Below are positions 2,524 to 17,727 of a DNA stretch of 64,000 nucleotides, in pieces. The notes beneath the pieces were generated by a model. The model was given only the letters and a program-made list of their open reading frames with translations, made no database searches and was not told the origin of the DNA. The DNA is from Singulisphaera sp. GP187 (lineage in GTDB: Bacteria > Planctomycetota > UBA1135 > UBA2386): the NCBI GenBank assembly GCA_945871815.1, contig CAMBXM010000001.1:1-64000 (forward strand), written 5' to 3'. Made by a program: the position numbers and the translations under genes. Positions within the stretch are counted from its first letter, which is position 1. Each line of letters begins with the position of its first letter.

Positions 2524-4794
2524 ATGACCCATCGTCCGTTTGTCTCCAGCCTCGTTGCGTTCACCCTCGTCGCCAGCGCTGCCGCACAAGCCAACGAGGA
2601 AGCCGACTTCAACCAGCGTCAGGCCAAGTCGCTGAACGCGTTCGCCAAGAAGTCCTTCGACAAGGGTTTCCCGCGCATCGCCAAAGTCGTCTGGCTGCAG
2701 GTCCACAAGCTCTACGACCCGGACAACGTCGAAGCATGGACCGGACTCGGCTACGTGAAGGTCGGCAACAGCTGGAACCCCGACACAAACAAGCCATACC
2801 CCAAGACCGACACAGGAAACGGCGCCGAAGGCCAGCCACTGCAGCGCGCCTACGAACAGCTGAAGAAGGACCTCGCCGGTATGCACCGCTTGCAGGCCGA
2901 CAAGTGGGGCAAGGCCGGGCGCACCGACCGAGCGAACCACCATTGGCGCATGGTGCTGCGCTGGGTCGACGACGATGAACAGGCCAAGAAGGCGCTCGAT
3001 TACGTCGAGGTCGGCGCGCTGTCCGGGACCGGCCTAGAGAAGAGCCTCTATGATCGCAGCAAGGCGATCGAGAAGGCAGTCGAGGAACAGTCGAAGACCG
3101 ACTACGAGGTCAAGCAGGTCACCGACGTCCAGTGCGAGCCGCTGGACCGCGCTCAGGTGAAGTACATCACAGTGAGGTCCGAGCACTTCACGCTGCACGG
3201 CGACGAAGACCAACTCGACAGCCTCTGCAACGGGCTGCGTTGGGCCGAGCGCACACTGCGCGTGTGCAAGGTCGCGTTCCCGTGGCCGGTAAAGGACGGA
3301 GCCTGGCCGCAGGACTGGGCGTGCTTCGACGCCAAGGAGACCTTTCAGCAGATCCTCAAGGCAAACCAGGTCCCCGACCTCGAATGGCGACTCGAGAACA
3401 CCGCAAGCTGCGGCATCGGGCGCACCAACGTTGCCGCTACCACGGGCGTTCAGGTACTGCTCGACTCGTGCGTGCGCAACGTCGCGCGTGGCTGCGCCGG
3501 CTTCGCTTCCGACGCGTATGTGGAAGGCATCGGCCACACGCTGGTCGGCATGATCTTCAACAACAACCGACTGTTCTCGGTCGACCTGAAGAAGCAGCAG
3601 GGCACGACTGCGAGCGAAGAGGACCGCGAGTTCCAGTCCCCGGACTTCGACGTCTGGAAGAATCTGAGCCTCGAACTCGCCTGGCGCAGCACCGGCGGCA
3701 TCCCGGCCAACAGGCTGCCGTTCTGCGAGGCGTCGAACTTCAGCAACGAAGAGCGCATCAAGGCTTGGTCGTTCTGCGACTACATGATGCGTCGCGACCC
3801 CGAGATGCTGCGCACCATGGACGCCATCGCCGTGGACATGCAGCAGAAGCGCCAGAAGCAGCCCGCTGACTTCGACAAGCAGTTCGAAGAGCAGCACAAG
3901 CTGCCTGTCGCGCAGCTCGACAAGGAGTGGGAAGACTTCTGGACCGGCGCGTCACCCGTGCTGAAGGCCATCCAGAACAACACGCCGCCGCTCGCCGCGA
4001 TCAGCAAGGGCGTGGACAAGTGGCTCGAGGCTTACAACGCCGCACGCAAGACGTTTGGCAAGACGCCCGTCACTTGGTCGGCCAACTTCTCCTCGCGCTG
4101 CAAGGAGCACGCGGAGTACCTCAAGAAGAACAAGGACCTGCGCGACCCAGCGTCGATGCACACGCAGTCCGTCGATCTCGGCGGCAGCTACGTCGGCAGT
4201 CTGTTTGCCCAAATGGCGCTGGTGATCCCGGACGCCAGCATCGGCAACGCCAAGAAGACCTTTGAAAAATGGGTCTACCTGCCCGGCTATCGCGACGCGC
4301 TGGTCAACAACACGATCCTCTCGGTCGGCATGTATCTCGAAGGCGACGTGCTGGTGATCAATGCCACGAGCGGCATCGGCCAGCCAAAGGCCGCGAGTGC
4401 CGGTGCCGATTGCTATCCGCCGCGCACCGACGGCGGGCTCACCTTCGAACGCGAAGTCGCGGTGGCGGACCTCGGATCCGAGGTCGAGGCATTGCTCAAG
4501 AAGCACGGGCGCGAGGGCCAGAAGACCATCGGCTTCCCACTCACGATCCACTTCGGCAGCACCGGCGGCCTCGGTGTTCGCGGCTCCCTCAACTGTTCGA
4601 TGCGTGGCCCGAAGGGCGACGCGATCGAGGGCGTGCTGGTGTTCGACGATGGCACCGTGCGGACCACGTCCGCCCCCGGCATGGCAACGTTCTGGCCGCT
4701 CGATCCGCTGCCAAAGGGCAAGGTCCAGTTCGCCTGGAGTTGGATGGGCGGCGACGCGCAACAGGTACTGAAGGGCGGGTTCTCCGCGAAGTGA
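2524..4794 (+). CDS. Secreted protein with C-terminal CAP-like domain
   Basis: About 756 residues. The ATG at 2524 gives a clean signal peptide (MTHRPFVSSLVAF..., cleavage near AAAQA); an in-frame ATG 63 bases upstream would put an odd proline-rich leader in front. The N-terminal third has helical, tetratricopeptide-like character. The middle (around VRSEHFTLHGDED) resembles the start of a peptidase-MA-like region, but I see no HExxH. The last ~280 residues carry CAP/SCP-like features: W-SANFSSRCKEHAEYL, a later conserved His (MHTQ), and KWVYLPGYRDALVNNTILSVG, which mirrors the family pattern W..SPGHR..LL....VG with the His of GHR replaced by Tyr. Function unknown; probably an extracellular or periplasmic binding protein. 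It is convergent with the protease gene at 5056. Confidence 0.75.
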   Translation: MTHRPFVSSLVAFTLVASAAAQANEEADFNQRQAKSLNAFAKKSFDKGFPRIAKVVWLQVHKLYDPDNVEAWTGLGYVKVGNSWNPDTNKPYPKTDTGNGAEGQPLQRAYEQLKKDLAGMHRLQADKWGKAGRTDRANHHWRMVLRWVDDDEQAKKALDYVEVGALSGTGLEKSLYDRSKAIEKAVEEQSKTDYEVKQVTDVQCEPLDRAQVKYITVRSEHFTLHGDEDQLDSLCNGLRWAERTLRVCKVAFPWPVKDGAWPQDWACFDAKETFQQILKANQVPDLEWRLENTASCGIGRTNVAATTGVQVLLDSCVRNVARGCAGFASDAYVEGIGHTLVGMIFNNNRLFSVDLKKQQGTTASEEDREFQSPDFDVWKNLSLELAWRSTGGIPANRLPFCEASNFSNEERIKAWSFCDYMMRRDPEMLRTMDAIAVDMQQKRQKQPADFDKQFEEQHKLPVAQLDKEWEDFWTGASPVLKAIQNNTPPLAAISKGVDKWLEAYNAARKTFGKTPVTWSANFSSRCKEHAEYLKKNKDLRDPASMHTQSVDLGGSYVGSLFAQMALVIPDASIGNAKKTFEKWVYLPGYRDALVNNTILSVGMYLEGDVLVINATSGIGQPKAASAGADCYPPRTDGGLTFEREVAVADLGSEVEALLKKHGREGQKTIGFPLTIHFGSTGGLGVRGSLNCSMRGPKGDAIEGVLVFDDGTVRTTSAPGMATFWPLDPLPKGKVQFAWSWMGGDAQQVLKGGFSAK

Positions 4795-4866
4795 GACCTC
4801 GCAGCCGCTGCGTTCGGCGCCGACGCCTCACCTCGGCAGCCGAGCGGCCTGCGACTCCGCCCCGGC

Positions 4867-4900: not shown

Positions 4901-5055
4901 GCGCCGAGCGAGAACGCAGCGCGTAGCACGCGGCACGGGAACCCCGTGGCCGCGGTCCTCGGCTTCGACTGGTGCGGCCGGTGCCTGCAAGGGCATGGCC
5001 GGCCAGCGTGTCGGCCAGATCTACGCCGCAACCACGCGCCATCCGGCTCTGCCGC

Positions 5056-7980
5056 TCACCAGAACAGGCGCTTGCCAGTCCACTTGACCGCCAGCACCTC
5101 GGAGCCGCGGGCGATCCAAACGCGCCACTCTGCCCCGTCATAGCTGCCGAGTTGGCGATCGTTCCAGAGGTCGCGGAGGGACGCGACGCTGTCGATGCGC
5201 TTCAGCACCGGATCGCCGCTCTCGCTGCGCAGTTCGATCGCCAGCACAAGGTCGCCGTCCTTCACGTCGACACCCTCTCTCTGCTCGCCCGGAAAGTACT
5301 TCTCCACCACGACCGCGGACTCAGGGATCTGCTGGGGCTCGCCCGTGGCGTCGCCAGTGAACTGACGATGCAGCGAGATCGCCGCCGCCCGCATCCGCGT
5401 TTCGTCTTCAGCAAACGGGAAGTCGCGGACCTGCAATCCCGACTGGCGGAGTACGGCGAAGACCTCGGCAGCAAGGGGGGCGATCCGAAGCGTGTTGCTC
5501 TGGCCGTTTTGCAGGAGCTTCAACTCGATCTCGACCAAAGGCCTCGCATTCTGCAACTGGAGTGCAAACGCCGGGCTCCACGAGATCTGCGTCCCGTCGA
5601 GAGCGACGATGCAATCGCCAGCCCTGACGCCGGCACGCGCGGCCGGGCCACGCGGGTCGCAATCGAGCACTAGCACTTTGCCGTTGTCGTCGAGCACGCG
5701 CATGCCGAGATCCGCACTTCGCAACTTGTAGGCTTGCAGCAGCAGCGAGAGAACCTGCTGGCGCACGTGGTCGACCTCGATCGCGTAGCCCTTGTTGTTG
5801 AACGTGCCACCGCCAGCGCTGTTGATCCCGACAAGGCGGCCGCGCATGTCCAGCAAGGCACCGCCGCTATTGCCGCCGTTGATCGCCGCATCCGTCTCGA
5901 CCAACGGACCGAGCTTCTCGAAGCGCCCCTTCACCCGGATCGATTGGTCCTTGGCCGAGACGATACCGAACGTCACCGTGTTGGCACGTCCGTGCGGATT
6001 GCCGATCGCCGCGACCCATTCGCCAACGGCGAGAGCCTCGCTACTGCCGAGCTCGATGGCGTGCACTGTTTCGCCAGCTTCGAGTTCGAGCTGCAGCAAG
6101 GACAGGTCGTCCTCGCGCGAGATGCTGAGCACCTTGACGCGATACTCCTTGCCGCCGAACACCCGCGCCGTGACCTGATGGTCTTGCACCATCGAACCAT
6201 CCGGTTTGGTCGCGTCGTCGACCACGTGCCAGTTGGACAGCGCCAAGCCCGACGCATCGATGATCACGCCCGAACCCAGGCTCATCGGCACGAACTTCTG
6301 CTCCTTCATCGAGGCGAACGGGTCGTCCTCATCGACGGCGGTCACATTCCTCGAAACGTAGATGTTGAGCATGGCCCCAGCCTGCTGCTCGACCATGCGT
6401 GAAAGCGCGGTCCGCCGCGCTTCCCGGCGTTCCGGATCCCGCCCCGCGGCGCGGATCGACTCGGTCGCAGTCGCGTGCTCTTCGATCTGCTCCTGGAAGG
6501 CGCGGCGGACGCGCGCGATGCCGACAAACGTCGACAGGTTGGTCTCGGTCGACACGCGATCGCCACGCTGCGCGAACTGCATCTCGATCGGATCGATGGC
6601 GCCGGCGTCGCCGATTCCGAGCAGGTGTCCGTGGACATCGATGACGGCCCCGCCGCCATTTTGATTGCCGAGGTTGGCGTCGGCCTGGATGCGACCACCC
6701 TCGCGATCCCGCTTGGCCGAGACGACGCCCGCCGTGACGACCGCAGCTCCATAGGGCCTGCCGACCGCGAGCATCACCTCGCCGACCTCGATGTCGTCGT
6801 CTTGGTTGCACACGGCTGCCGACAAGGTCGCACCGACCGGCAGCTTCACTCGGAGCAGCGCCAGATTGATGCTCGAGCTCGTGTGCAGCAGCTCTGCCTC
6901 GTAGACCGAGCCATCCGCAACGCGAAGGCGCGGCGTGCCCTTCTTGGCGACGTGCGCATTGCACACGACCAAACCCGTAGCCGAGAGGACCACGCCGGAG
7001 CCGAGTCCTGGCACGCGCACCACGCCACCAGGATCGAGCGGACCGGCCTTCGGAAACTCGCCCTCGCCAGCCCACACGGTGACGACCGACGGCAGCATGG
7101 CCTGCACGGCCGCGGCTTGCGGGTGCACGGGGCCGGCCTTCGGGGCCCCACCGCCGAGCGCCGAGGCGAACACCGTTTGGATGCACGAAGCCGTGACCAG
7201 CGCACCAAAGCTCGGCTTCAGCAGGTCCTCGAGCTTCGGGTCGGAAACGTCGCGTTGCACGTGTTCGCTGGCGTAGATCCCGAGCACCCGTCCCTGCGCG
7301 TCAAACGCCGGCGCGCCGTCGCAGCGTTCGTCGTTGCGCGAATCGCACAAGAACACCTGTTCGGCGGCCAACTGGGCCCCGCCGATCTCGATGCCCGACG
7401 AGGCGTTGCTGGCGACCCCGAGGAAGGCGAGCATGTCCTTGCCGTCTGGTCGCGAGAGAACGACGACCGGCTCACCGATCGCGGGGCGCGGCGCGCCAAA
7501 GGTCGCGGCGACGAGGCCACCCTCCGGCGGCGTGACCTTGAGCAGCACCAGCCCCGTAGCGTCATCGATCGCCTCGATCGCAGCGGGCAGCTGCGTGTTA
7601 GCCGCGTCGTCGAGCTGCACCAACAGGCGCTTGTCCGTCGCACCCTGCACTTCGCGCACGAGGTGGCGAAAGGTCAGCACCAGGCCCTTCTGGTCGACAA
7701 CCACGCCGCTCGCCATGCGCACGATCGGGAACTTGCCGCGCGGCCCGTCGACTTCGACGACGACGTGCACCACGCTGCGGCGGACCTTGGCGACGAGGGC
7801 TGCGGATCCGCTCGGATCTACTGCGGCGGCGGCAACAGTCGGCGCTCGAAGCAGCGTCGGGTTGCCAACAGCTGGACCGCCTGGGCTCTGGGCCGCGAGC
7901 GGCAGCATCAGCGACAACAGAGCCCACGACGGGGGGCCGAACGCGGGAAGATCCGAGGACGCAGAACGCGGACGCAGCAT
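5056..7980 (-). CDS. HtrA/Deg-like protease with three trypsin folds, one active
   Basis: 974 residues with a signal peptide (about 1-31), so it acts outside the cytoplasm. Three trypsin-like domains follow one another. Domain 1 (about 60-250) keeps a His (H106, FRHLV), but the Asp position reads G143 (GLVLLK) and the serine loop reads RCDGAPA, without Ser. Domain 2 (about 290-480) keeps H343 (NAHV) but has Asn for Asp (INLALL, N372) and Asn for Ser (NQNGGGA, N441). Domain 3 (about 535-750) has a full triad: H585 (NWHVV), D625 (DDLSLL) and S705 (GGNSGGA). A PDZ domain follows (about 757-835), with GPAARAGVRAGD as its ligand-loop region, and then a divergent second PDZ-like tail. Domains 1 and 2 are therefore probably pseudoproteases. 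The secreted CxxC-protein gene lies 39 bp upstream on the same strand (stop at 8020) and may be co-transcribed. Confidence 0.88.
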   Translation of the reverse strand: MLRPRSASSDLPAFGPPSWALLSLMLPLAAQSPGGPAVGNPTLLRAPTVAAAAVDPSGSAALVAKVRRSVVHVVVEVDGPRGKFPIVRMASGVVVDQKGLVLTFRHLVREVQGATDKRLLVQLDDAANTQLPAAIEAIDDATGLVLLKVTPPEGGLVAATFGAPRPAIGEPVVVLSRPDGKDMLAFLGVASNASSGIEIGGAQLAAEQVFLCDSRNDERCDGAPAFDAQGRVLGIYASEHVQRDVSDPKLEDLLKPSFGALVTASCIQTVFASALGGGAPKAGPVHPQAAAVQAMLPSVVTVWAGEGEFPKAGPLDPGGVVRVPGLGSGVVLSATGLVVCNAHVAKKGTPRLRVADGSVYEAELLHTSSSINLALLRVKLPVGATLSAAVCNQDDDIEVGEVMLAVGRPYGAAVVTAGVVSAKRDREGGRIQADANLGNQNGGGAVIDVHGHLLGIGDAGAIDPIEMQFAQRGDRVSTETNLSTFVGIARVRRAFQEQIEEHATATESIRAAGRDPERREARRTALSRMVEQQAGAMLNIYVSRNVTAVDEDDPFASMKEQKFVPMSLGSGVIIDASGLALSNWHVVDDATKPDGSMVQDHQVTARVFGGKEYRVKVLSISREDDLSLLQLELEAGETVHAIELGSSEALAVGEWVAAIGNPHGRANTVTFGIVSAKDQSIRVKGRFEKLGPLVETDAAINGGNSGGALLDMRGRLVGINSAGGGTFNNKGYAIEVDHVRQQVLSLLLQAYKLRSADLGMRVLDDNGKVLVLDCDPRGPAARAGVRAGDCIVALDGTQISWSPAFALQLQNARPLVEIELKLLQNGQSNTLRIAPLAAEVFAVLRQSGLQVRDFPFAEDETRMRAAAISLHRQFTGDATGEPQQIPESAVVVEKYFPGEQREGVDVKDGDLVLAIELRSESGDPVLKRIDSVASLRDLWNDRQLGSYDGAEWRVWIARGSEVLAVKWTGKRLFW

Positions 7981-16634: not shown

Positions 16635-17609
16635 TCACTCGACCTTGGTCTGCAGCGCTAGCAGCAGCGCGCGCGCGCGATCGAGCACCTTGGAGCTGCC
16701 TTCGTTCTTGAGCAGCGCGGCCAGCGCCTTCGGCGCGCCATCGCCCTTCTTGCCCCGGAGTTGGTCCTGGATCTTGTCGAGCTTCTTGTCCAGCGCGACT
16801 TCGGCCTTCAGGGCTTCGCCGTCGAACTCGGCGACCATCGGCTGCACCTCGGTGACCCAAGGGGCACGCTGACCGACGCTGCGAGCAAGCTCCTTGCTCT
16901 GCTCCTCGGCCTTCAAGAAGTAACCCTGCGACTTCAGGTTCTCGATCGACTTCTTCGCCGATGCGAAGCGAGCATCGACCTCTTTCTGCAACTGCGTGCG
17001 CTCGTCGCCTTCTGGCAACTCCTCGACTGCGGCCAAGGCGGCGGCGAGGTCGCGCTTGCCGTAGAGCGACGCGCGGACCTTGCGTGCACCAGCGCTGGCA
17101 CCCCAGCCCTTCTTGACCTTGACCAGCTCGGCAGCGATGAGCTCGTCGATCTTCTTGGTGTCCGAAAGCGGATTGCCCGACCACAGCAGCGTCCCATCAA
17201 CCCCGATCACACAGGCGTTGGGGATGCCGGGGGCTTCGGGATTCGGCACAAAGGTGCTCGTGCAGGCAAAGCAGTCATTGCCCGGAAACGTCTTCCACAG
17301 GAAGGCTGCGAGCTCGTTCTCATTCGCGCCCTGGACCTCGACCAGGATGCTGACGAGACCGCTCTTGCTGAGTTCGTGATCGTGTTTGATGGCGCTCGGC
17401 ACGGAGCCCCCGATGCACGGGCCTCAATGTGTGCCCCAGCGGTCGATGACGACCGGCTGGCCATAGAACTCGGACAGGCTTTGACGCCCGTCGCCATTCA
17501 AGAACTGCGAGAACGAGAAGTCCGGCATCTTGTCGCCGACCTTGGCGCGCTCTTGCGCGGCCAGCGGCAGGACGAGGAATGCCAGAGCGATCAGAGTGCG
17601 ACGATTCAT
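16635..17609 (-). CDS. Thioredoxin-fold selenoprotein candidate (UGPC active site)
   Basis: Read through one UGA, this is a single 324-residue frame. Residues 1-18 are a signal peptide (LPLAAQ). Residues 20-150 are a thioredoxin/TlpA-like domain: VGDKMPDFSFSQFLNGD, then VVIDRWGTH-U62-GPC65-IGGSVP. The UGA (17424-17426) falls precisely on the first Cys of the expected WGTxCGPC motif. Downstream the same frame stays open for 262 codons with fold-consistent sequence (SGLVSILVEVQG, then PNACVIGVDGTLLWSG, the cis-Pro/beta region) and a charged helical tail. A hairpin suited to a bacterial SECIS follows the UGA. Standard gene calling splits it into 61- and 255-residue pieces. The alternative is a nonsense mutation or sequencing error of TGC/TGT, but the position and the selenium transporter candidate at 56884 favour selenocysteine. 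Likely an exported disulfide/peroxide redox protein. Confidence 0.8.
17391..17409 (-). promoter_or_regulatory. bSECIS-like hairpin downstream of in-frame UGA
   Basis: On the transcript, GGGCUC pairs with GAGC-G-CC (one bulged G) around the six-base loop CGUGCC. The loop has G at its second position, 22 nt after the UGA, within the usual spacing of bacterial SECIS elements. A lower helix CGUG/CACG (17416-17419 with 17381-17384) can extend it. Folded by eye only. Confidence 0.55.
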
Positions 17610-17727
17610 GGGTGACGATCCAGTCGGAGCAGGCGCGAGAGTCTAGCGATCGAACCCGTGCGACGCAGGCACCGAGGCCAAATGCCCTGGGGCCGGCGCG
17701 AGGTCACCGCTGGCCACCGGGCCAAAG

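Follow-up and report, generated by a model that had tools for sequence, protein, structure and literature searches.

The locus and its reading frame

The window, by which we mean the whole 64,000-nucleotide stretch of Singulisphaera sp. GP187 DNA that was analysed, carries on its minus strand a 324-codon frame that opens with an ATG at 17609, closes with a TGA at 16637-16635 and contains a single internal TGA, codon 62, at 17426-17424. With this codon written as U, the translation reads MNRRTLIALAFLVLPLAAQ...VVIDRWGTHUGPCIGGSVPSAIK... The original prediction held that two listed minus-strand frames are one frame broken by a single TGA at the first Cys of a redox motif, and the sequence agrees on each count: the motif is WGTHUGPC, and the frame stays open for 262 codons beyond the TGA (17423-16635, minus strand). 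The GTG at 17402, from which the second listed frame starts, is merely the first start codon past the TGA, the frame being open from 17423. The features of the gene itself are as follows.

16635..17609, minus strand: complete coding sequence of 324 residues, opened by ATG and closed by TGA, whose internal TGA would be read as selenocysteine (Sec); 52-65% full-length identity to close orthologues
17424..17426, minus strand: UGA codon 62, putative Sec at the first position of UGPC, as judged from the TGA column in orthologues
17415..17417, minus strand: Cys65, the likely resolving partner of Sec62 (UxxC), invariant in alignment A3

An open reading frame of 284 residues also runs antisense over the gene (16761-17615, plus strand); it is probably a mirror, or shadow, of the codon pattern, since its 42-50% conservation lies below the 52-64% of the sense frame. 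No neighbouring gene proved to be conserved or to point to a partner: apart from the gene and its antisense shadow, no open reading frame between 8 and 30 kb of the window matches the flanks of ten orthologous loci, and a search for a plasmid-borne relative found none. No second convincing candidate, an in-frame TGA within a redox motif, emerged from the rest of the window in a non-exhaustive scan whose GC3 filter missed the present gene. Elsewhere in the same genome, at L105 (G000:C79:4243-4689), a further in-frame TGA falls within a UxxC motif of thioredoxin-like character, VDFWGDWUGPCRELYP.

Conservation of the UGA codon

A homologue search covering 61 genomes of the same order returned a match in 50. 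Thirty homologous loci were fetched, from independent genomes of that order and with the window gene among them; column 62 is TGA in 26 of these. The proposed alignment check thus gave U or Cys in this column, with one Ser: L031 (52% identity) has TGC, and L033 (45% identity) has AGC, from which it follows that the Sec residue can be lost. The genome of L033, G018, retains selB, and L033 itself has lost the hairpin described below. Two more remote sequences, L048 and L049 (~30% identity), keep the surrounding fold motifs and have neither UxxC nor CxxC. TGA is likewise found at column 62 in three public planctomycete contigs from metagenome-assembled genomes (L051-L053; 60-65% identity), which are public copies of the already counted loci L022, L028 and L026. 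Far relatives in the Gemmatimonadota, Latescibacterota, Bacteroidota and other Planctomycetota carry Cys.

Could the TGA be a nonsense mutation in a pseudogene, or a miscalled TGC or TGT? The source genome, G000 (4.19 Mb), is 87.6% complete and lies in 286 contigs, and errors can occur in such an assembly; however, the internal TGA is common to all eleven of the closest Sec-type orthologues (11/11, window gene included), each from a separate assembly, as well as to many distant ones. Nor does the coding character of the frame end there: the three codon positions diverge to much the same extent on either side of the internal TGA (0.32/0.20/0.44 before, 0.30/0.27/0.44 after), so that codon-like divergence persists past it. 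With the TGA conserved in independent genomes, we reject both a pseudogene and a read error, and consider either to be highly improbable.

A SECIS-like hairpin downstream of the UGA

A hairpin resembling a bacterial selenocysteine insertion sequence (SECIS) follows the UGA, as had been predicted, with its apical G at 17402, exactly 22 nt past the UGA.

17391..17410, minus strand: SECIS-like hairpin, stem 17410-17404 with 17397-17391, based on covariation and synonymous randomisation
17398..17403, minus strand: apical loop CGUGCC with G as its second base, the likely SelB contact; identical in 35/35 TGA-bearing sequences

Counted from the T of the TGA, nt 17-23 pair with nt 30-36 around the loop CGTGCC in 35 TGA-bearing relatives, which were picked for a gap-free alignment over the hairpin (A4); relatives with gaps there, L065 and L054 among them, have, by eye, similar but shifted hairpins. 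On A4, 82% of cells are paired (shuffled mean 58.7%), 49 cells are changed on both sides of the stem (19.3 shuffled), and the covariation score is 0.497 (0.131 shuffled; 0.07-0.21 for slid versions of the pairing). These values were reached by none of 500 shuffles, a count that is not a probability because the sequences are related. As the hairpin lies in coding DNA, synonymous codons were also randomised: 5.74 of the 7 pairs are kept, against an expectation of 3.09 +/- 0.20 and a maximum of 3.80 in 2000 randomisations. Furthermore, the Val codon in the loop is GTG in all 35 sequences, although GTC is equally common in the family, and among the orthologues the eight codons from +5 and +6 after the UGA have a third-position divergence of 0.12, as compared with a median of 0.43; this minimum is matched by a single further stretch, at +100. 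By these comparisons, the stem shows covariation, and its conservation goes far past anything that the encoded protein would require. In all four relatives examined in which column 62 is Cys or Ser, the hairpin is lost, with 1, 0, 2 and 3 of the 7 pairs left in L031, L033, L101 and L102, respectively. The folding energy of this one sequence by itself does not stand out significantly from that of its synonymous randomisations (p = 0.14), so the argument for the hairpin is a comparative one that rests on the family. Searching G000 with the hairpin model gave no further strong site, the next best having an E-value of 0.05.

The selenocysteine decoding machinery

The genome also encodes the full apparatus for Sec, which the original prediction had proposed to look for: a tRNA-Sec (selC; 79 bits, anticodon tca), together with SelA, SelB and SelD, whose scores of 470.7, 335.2 and 348 bits, respectively, are each over the cut-off. 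SelD (L018, G000:C70) has an in-frame TGA of its own, in ...ASGSGUAAKLPPGSL..., which is followed by a predicted hairpin whose loop, CGTGC, resembles the CGTGCC loop of the thioredoxin-like gene; in most relatives (L142-L170), the loop of the SelD hairpin is CGGGC or CGGGA. Across the same order, own genome included, selB is present in 58/61 genomes and selD in 57/61, and nearly all selD genes in those 57 have an internal TGA. From these genes SelD is predicted to be a selenoprotein across the order, and Sec decoding seems, for the same reasons, to extend through the entire order.

The machinery bears directly on a further reading of the data, in which TGA is reassigned genome-wide to Trp, Cys or Gly rather than decoded as Sec. 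Reassignment would account for the read-through of the internal TGA, but TGA is also the terminal stop in 9 of the 11 closest orthologues, that is, here and in 8 of the 10 others; moreover, the genome holds a full Sec set, including tRNA-Sec, and the internal TGA is confined to the column of the active-site Cys, where it is followed by the covarying hairpin. Because TGA serves as a stop within the gene family, we reject this reading and rate its probability lower still than that of a pseudogene or read error. Taken together, the internal TGA in 11/11 orthologues, the terminal TGA in nine of them and the unchanged codon-position divergence exclude read error, pseudogene and code reassignment.

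The UGA conserved in place of an active-site Cys, the machinery for decoding it and the covarying hairpin together lead us to conclude, with high confidence, that the window gene is an intact gene for an exported UxxC selenoprotein, most likely a thiol-disulfide oxidoreductase, with Sec most plausibly inserted at residue 62.

Predicted structure of the protein

The protein is predicted to comprise a leader and two domains.

17553..17609, minus strand: putative signal peptide, approximately residues 1-19 (MNRRTLIALAFLVLPLAAQ), judged by eye; the hydrophobic leader is kept in homologues (A3)
17130..17540, minus strand: thioredoxin-like domain (Redoxin, ResA/TlpA type), residues 24-160, based on PF08534 and Foldseek
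17220..17222, minus strand: Pro130 of a GIP motif, the likely cis-Pro facing the active site, invariant in A3
16638..17117, minus strand: all-helical C-terminal domain, residues 165-324 (~160 residues), eight helices, pLDDT 87.6

An AlphaFold2 model, in which Sec was entered as Cys, has a mean pLDDT of 89 and a pTM of 0.84, and consists of a thioredoxin domain followed by a helical domain; its low-confidence segment 1-18 coincides with the signal-peptide-like leader, through which the protein would be exported. The UGPC motif sits at the start of helix 63-83 with a proline opposite, and Pro130 is presumably the active-site-facing cis-Pro familiar from the thioredoxin fold. Foldseek places DsbE, ResA and TlpA-related oxidoreductases as the best solved-structure matches (E ~1e-6 to 1e-5, TMt 0.72-0.81); as modelled, the thioredoxin domain is ResA/TlpA-like in fold. 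Leader and fold are thus in keeping with the exported thioredoxin-fold redox enzyme that had been proposed. A second CxxC (CFAC, residues 113-116) was considered and set aside, as it is not conserved among orthologues. Folded alone, the helical tail found no significant match in the PDB, just loose TPR-like ones.

Profile searches leave some room for a real selenoprotein of a different function, namely, a peroxiredoxin-like peroxidase. Redoxin (PF08534) scores 30.5 bits, over its cut-off of 26.6, through profile positions 1-71 of 148 only, its N-terminal half, and published Prx-like UxxC selenoproteins have Redoxin and AhpC-TSA domains (PMC2398784, PMC13188914). However, AhpC-TSA (PF00578) reaches only 20.9 bits here, under its cut-off of 26, and the UxxC with its later GIP proline, and the best structural matches, point instead to the thiol-disulfide oxidoreductases. 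We regard a peroxidase as unlikely, albeit far less so than the readings rejected above; an exported UxxC thiol-disulfide oxidoreductase is most likely, its redox role being assigned by homology only.

For such an oxidoreductase, a plausible course of events can be outlined. At the UGA, SelB carrying Sec-tRNA-Sec would bind the loop CGUGCC on the ribosome, and selenocysteine would then be inserted at residue 62. The product would be exported via its signal peptide and fold as a ResA/TlpA-type thioredoxin domain; outside the cytoplasm, Sec62 may attack a substrate disulfide (or an oxidant), and Cys65 would resolve the mixed selenenylsulfide. The helical tail, we would guess, binds substrate, partner or envelope.

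Relation to known selenoproteins

UxxC selenoproteins of the Redoxin, TlpA and Prx-like types are a published class (PMC13188914, PMC2398784), of which the window protein is therefore a member, and selenoproteins have been reported earlier in Planctomycetes (PMC4807772). With the Redoxin family selenoprotein (PF08534, 'Prx-like 3' of the GOS survey; PMC13188914, PMC2398784), it has in common the Redoxin match and the UxxC, a likeness at the level of domain and motif. The ResA/TlpA/DsbE oxidoreductases share its fold (Foldseek E ~1e-6), export, CxxC position and GIP proline, whereas the window protein has Sec for the first Cys and an extra helical domain of ~160 residues, and falls far under the NCBIfam cut-offs (27.3 versus 170 for ResA, 20.2 versus 230 for TlpA). 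Indeed, none of the NCBIfam models reaches its cut-off for the window protein, which lends indirect support to the claim that the gene is unannotated.

Two named families come close in other respects. The C-terminal half of the profile for VPGUxxT type 1 (NF041382; positions 195-347) matches the helical tail of the relative L054 with 84 bits, which indicates that a named selenoprotein family, with a different Sec motif, shares the arrangement in two domains; L054 nevertheless falls short of the cut-off of 350, and the window protein, with UGPC rather than VPGUxxT, has no match. NF041054 (ResA-like WAxxUGC motif protein) has a ResA-like domain in common and is weakly matched by relatives from the second clade described below, but those matches lie far under its cut-off of 300, and the window motif is UxxC. 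The novelty lies in the two-domain subfamily and in how widely it occurs among the Planctomycetota; a literature search, in which subscription journals were partly covered, turned up no account of the subfamily in this phylum.

Spread and significance of the family

The family is a large one: of the 294 genomes of the phylum that were searched with its profile, 222 gave a match at 1e-20. Most of the best matches listed have one TGA each, and in the phylum loci examined the TGA lies within the UxxC motif. In a second clade, [FW]AxWUGPC and relatives (L069-L100, and L104 in G000), ~27 sequences carry TGA in place of the same Cys, and the 66 nt that follow the TGA showed no conserved hairpin. The member of this clade in the source genome, L104, lies at G000:C5:30448-31422. 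At several loci (L054, G175:C4, G292:C3, G283:C86, G082:C50 and G190:C3), a TGA gene stands in tandem beside a paralogue without TGA; at L054, the two genes (3830-4828 and 4932-5924) pair UGPC with CGPC. We offer only tentatively, as something we doubt at present, the broader proposal of a phylum-wide two-domain UxxC family, partly in tandem Sec/Cys pairs, with a second clade in which the same UGA is read through although the first 66 nt lack the usual hairpin. If true, there would be a second way of marking a Sec UGA in the same cells.

Standard gene callers stop at the UGA and would thus overlook redox proteins of this sort in genomes of the Planctomycetota. As a clean natural set, the family also lends itself to testing the rules of SECIS function, since the hairpin accompanies Sec and disappears where Cys or Ser takes its place. 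It further suggests that these little-known bacteria use selenium chemistry routinely in their envelope.
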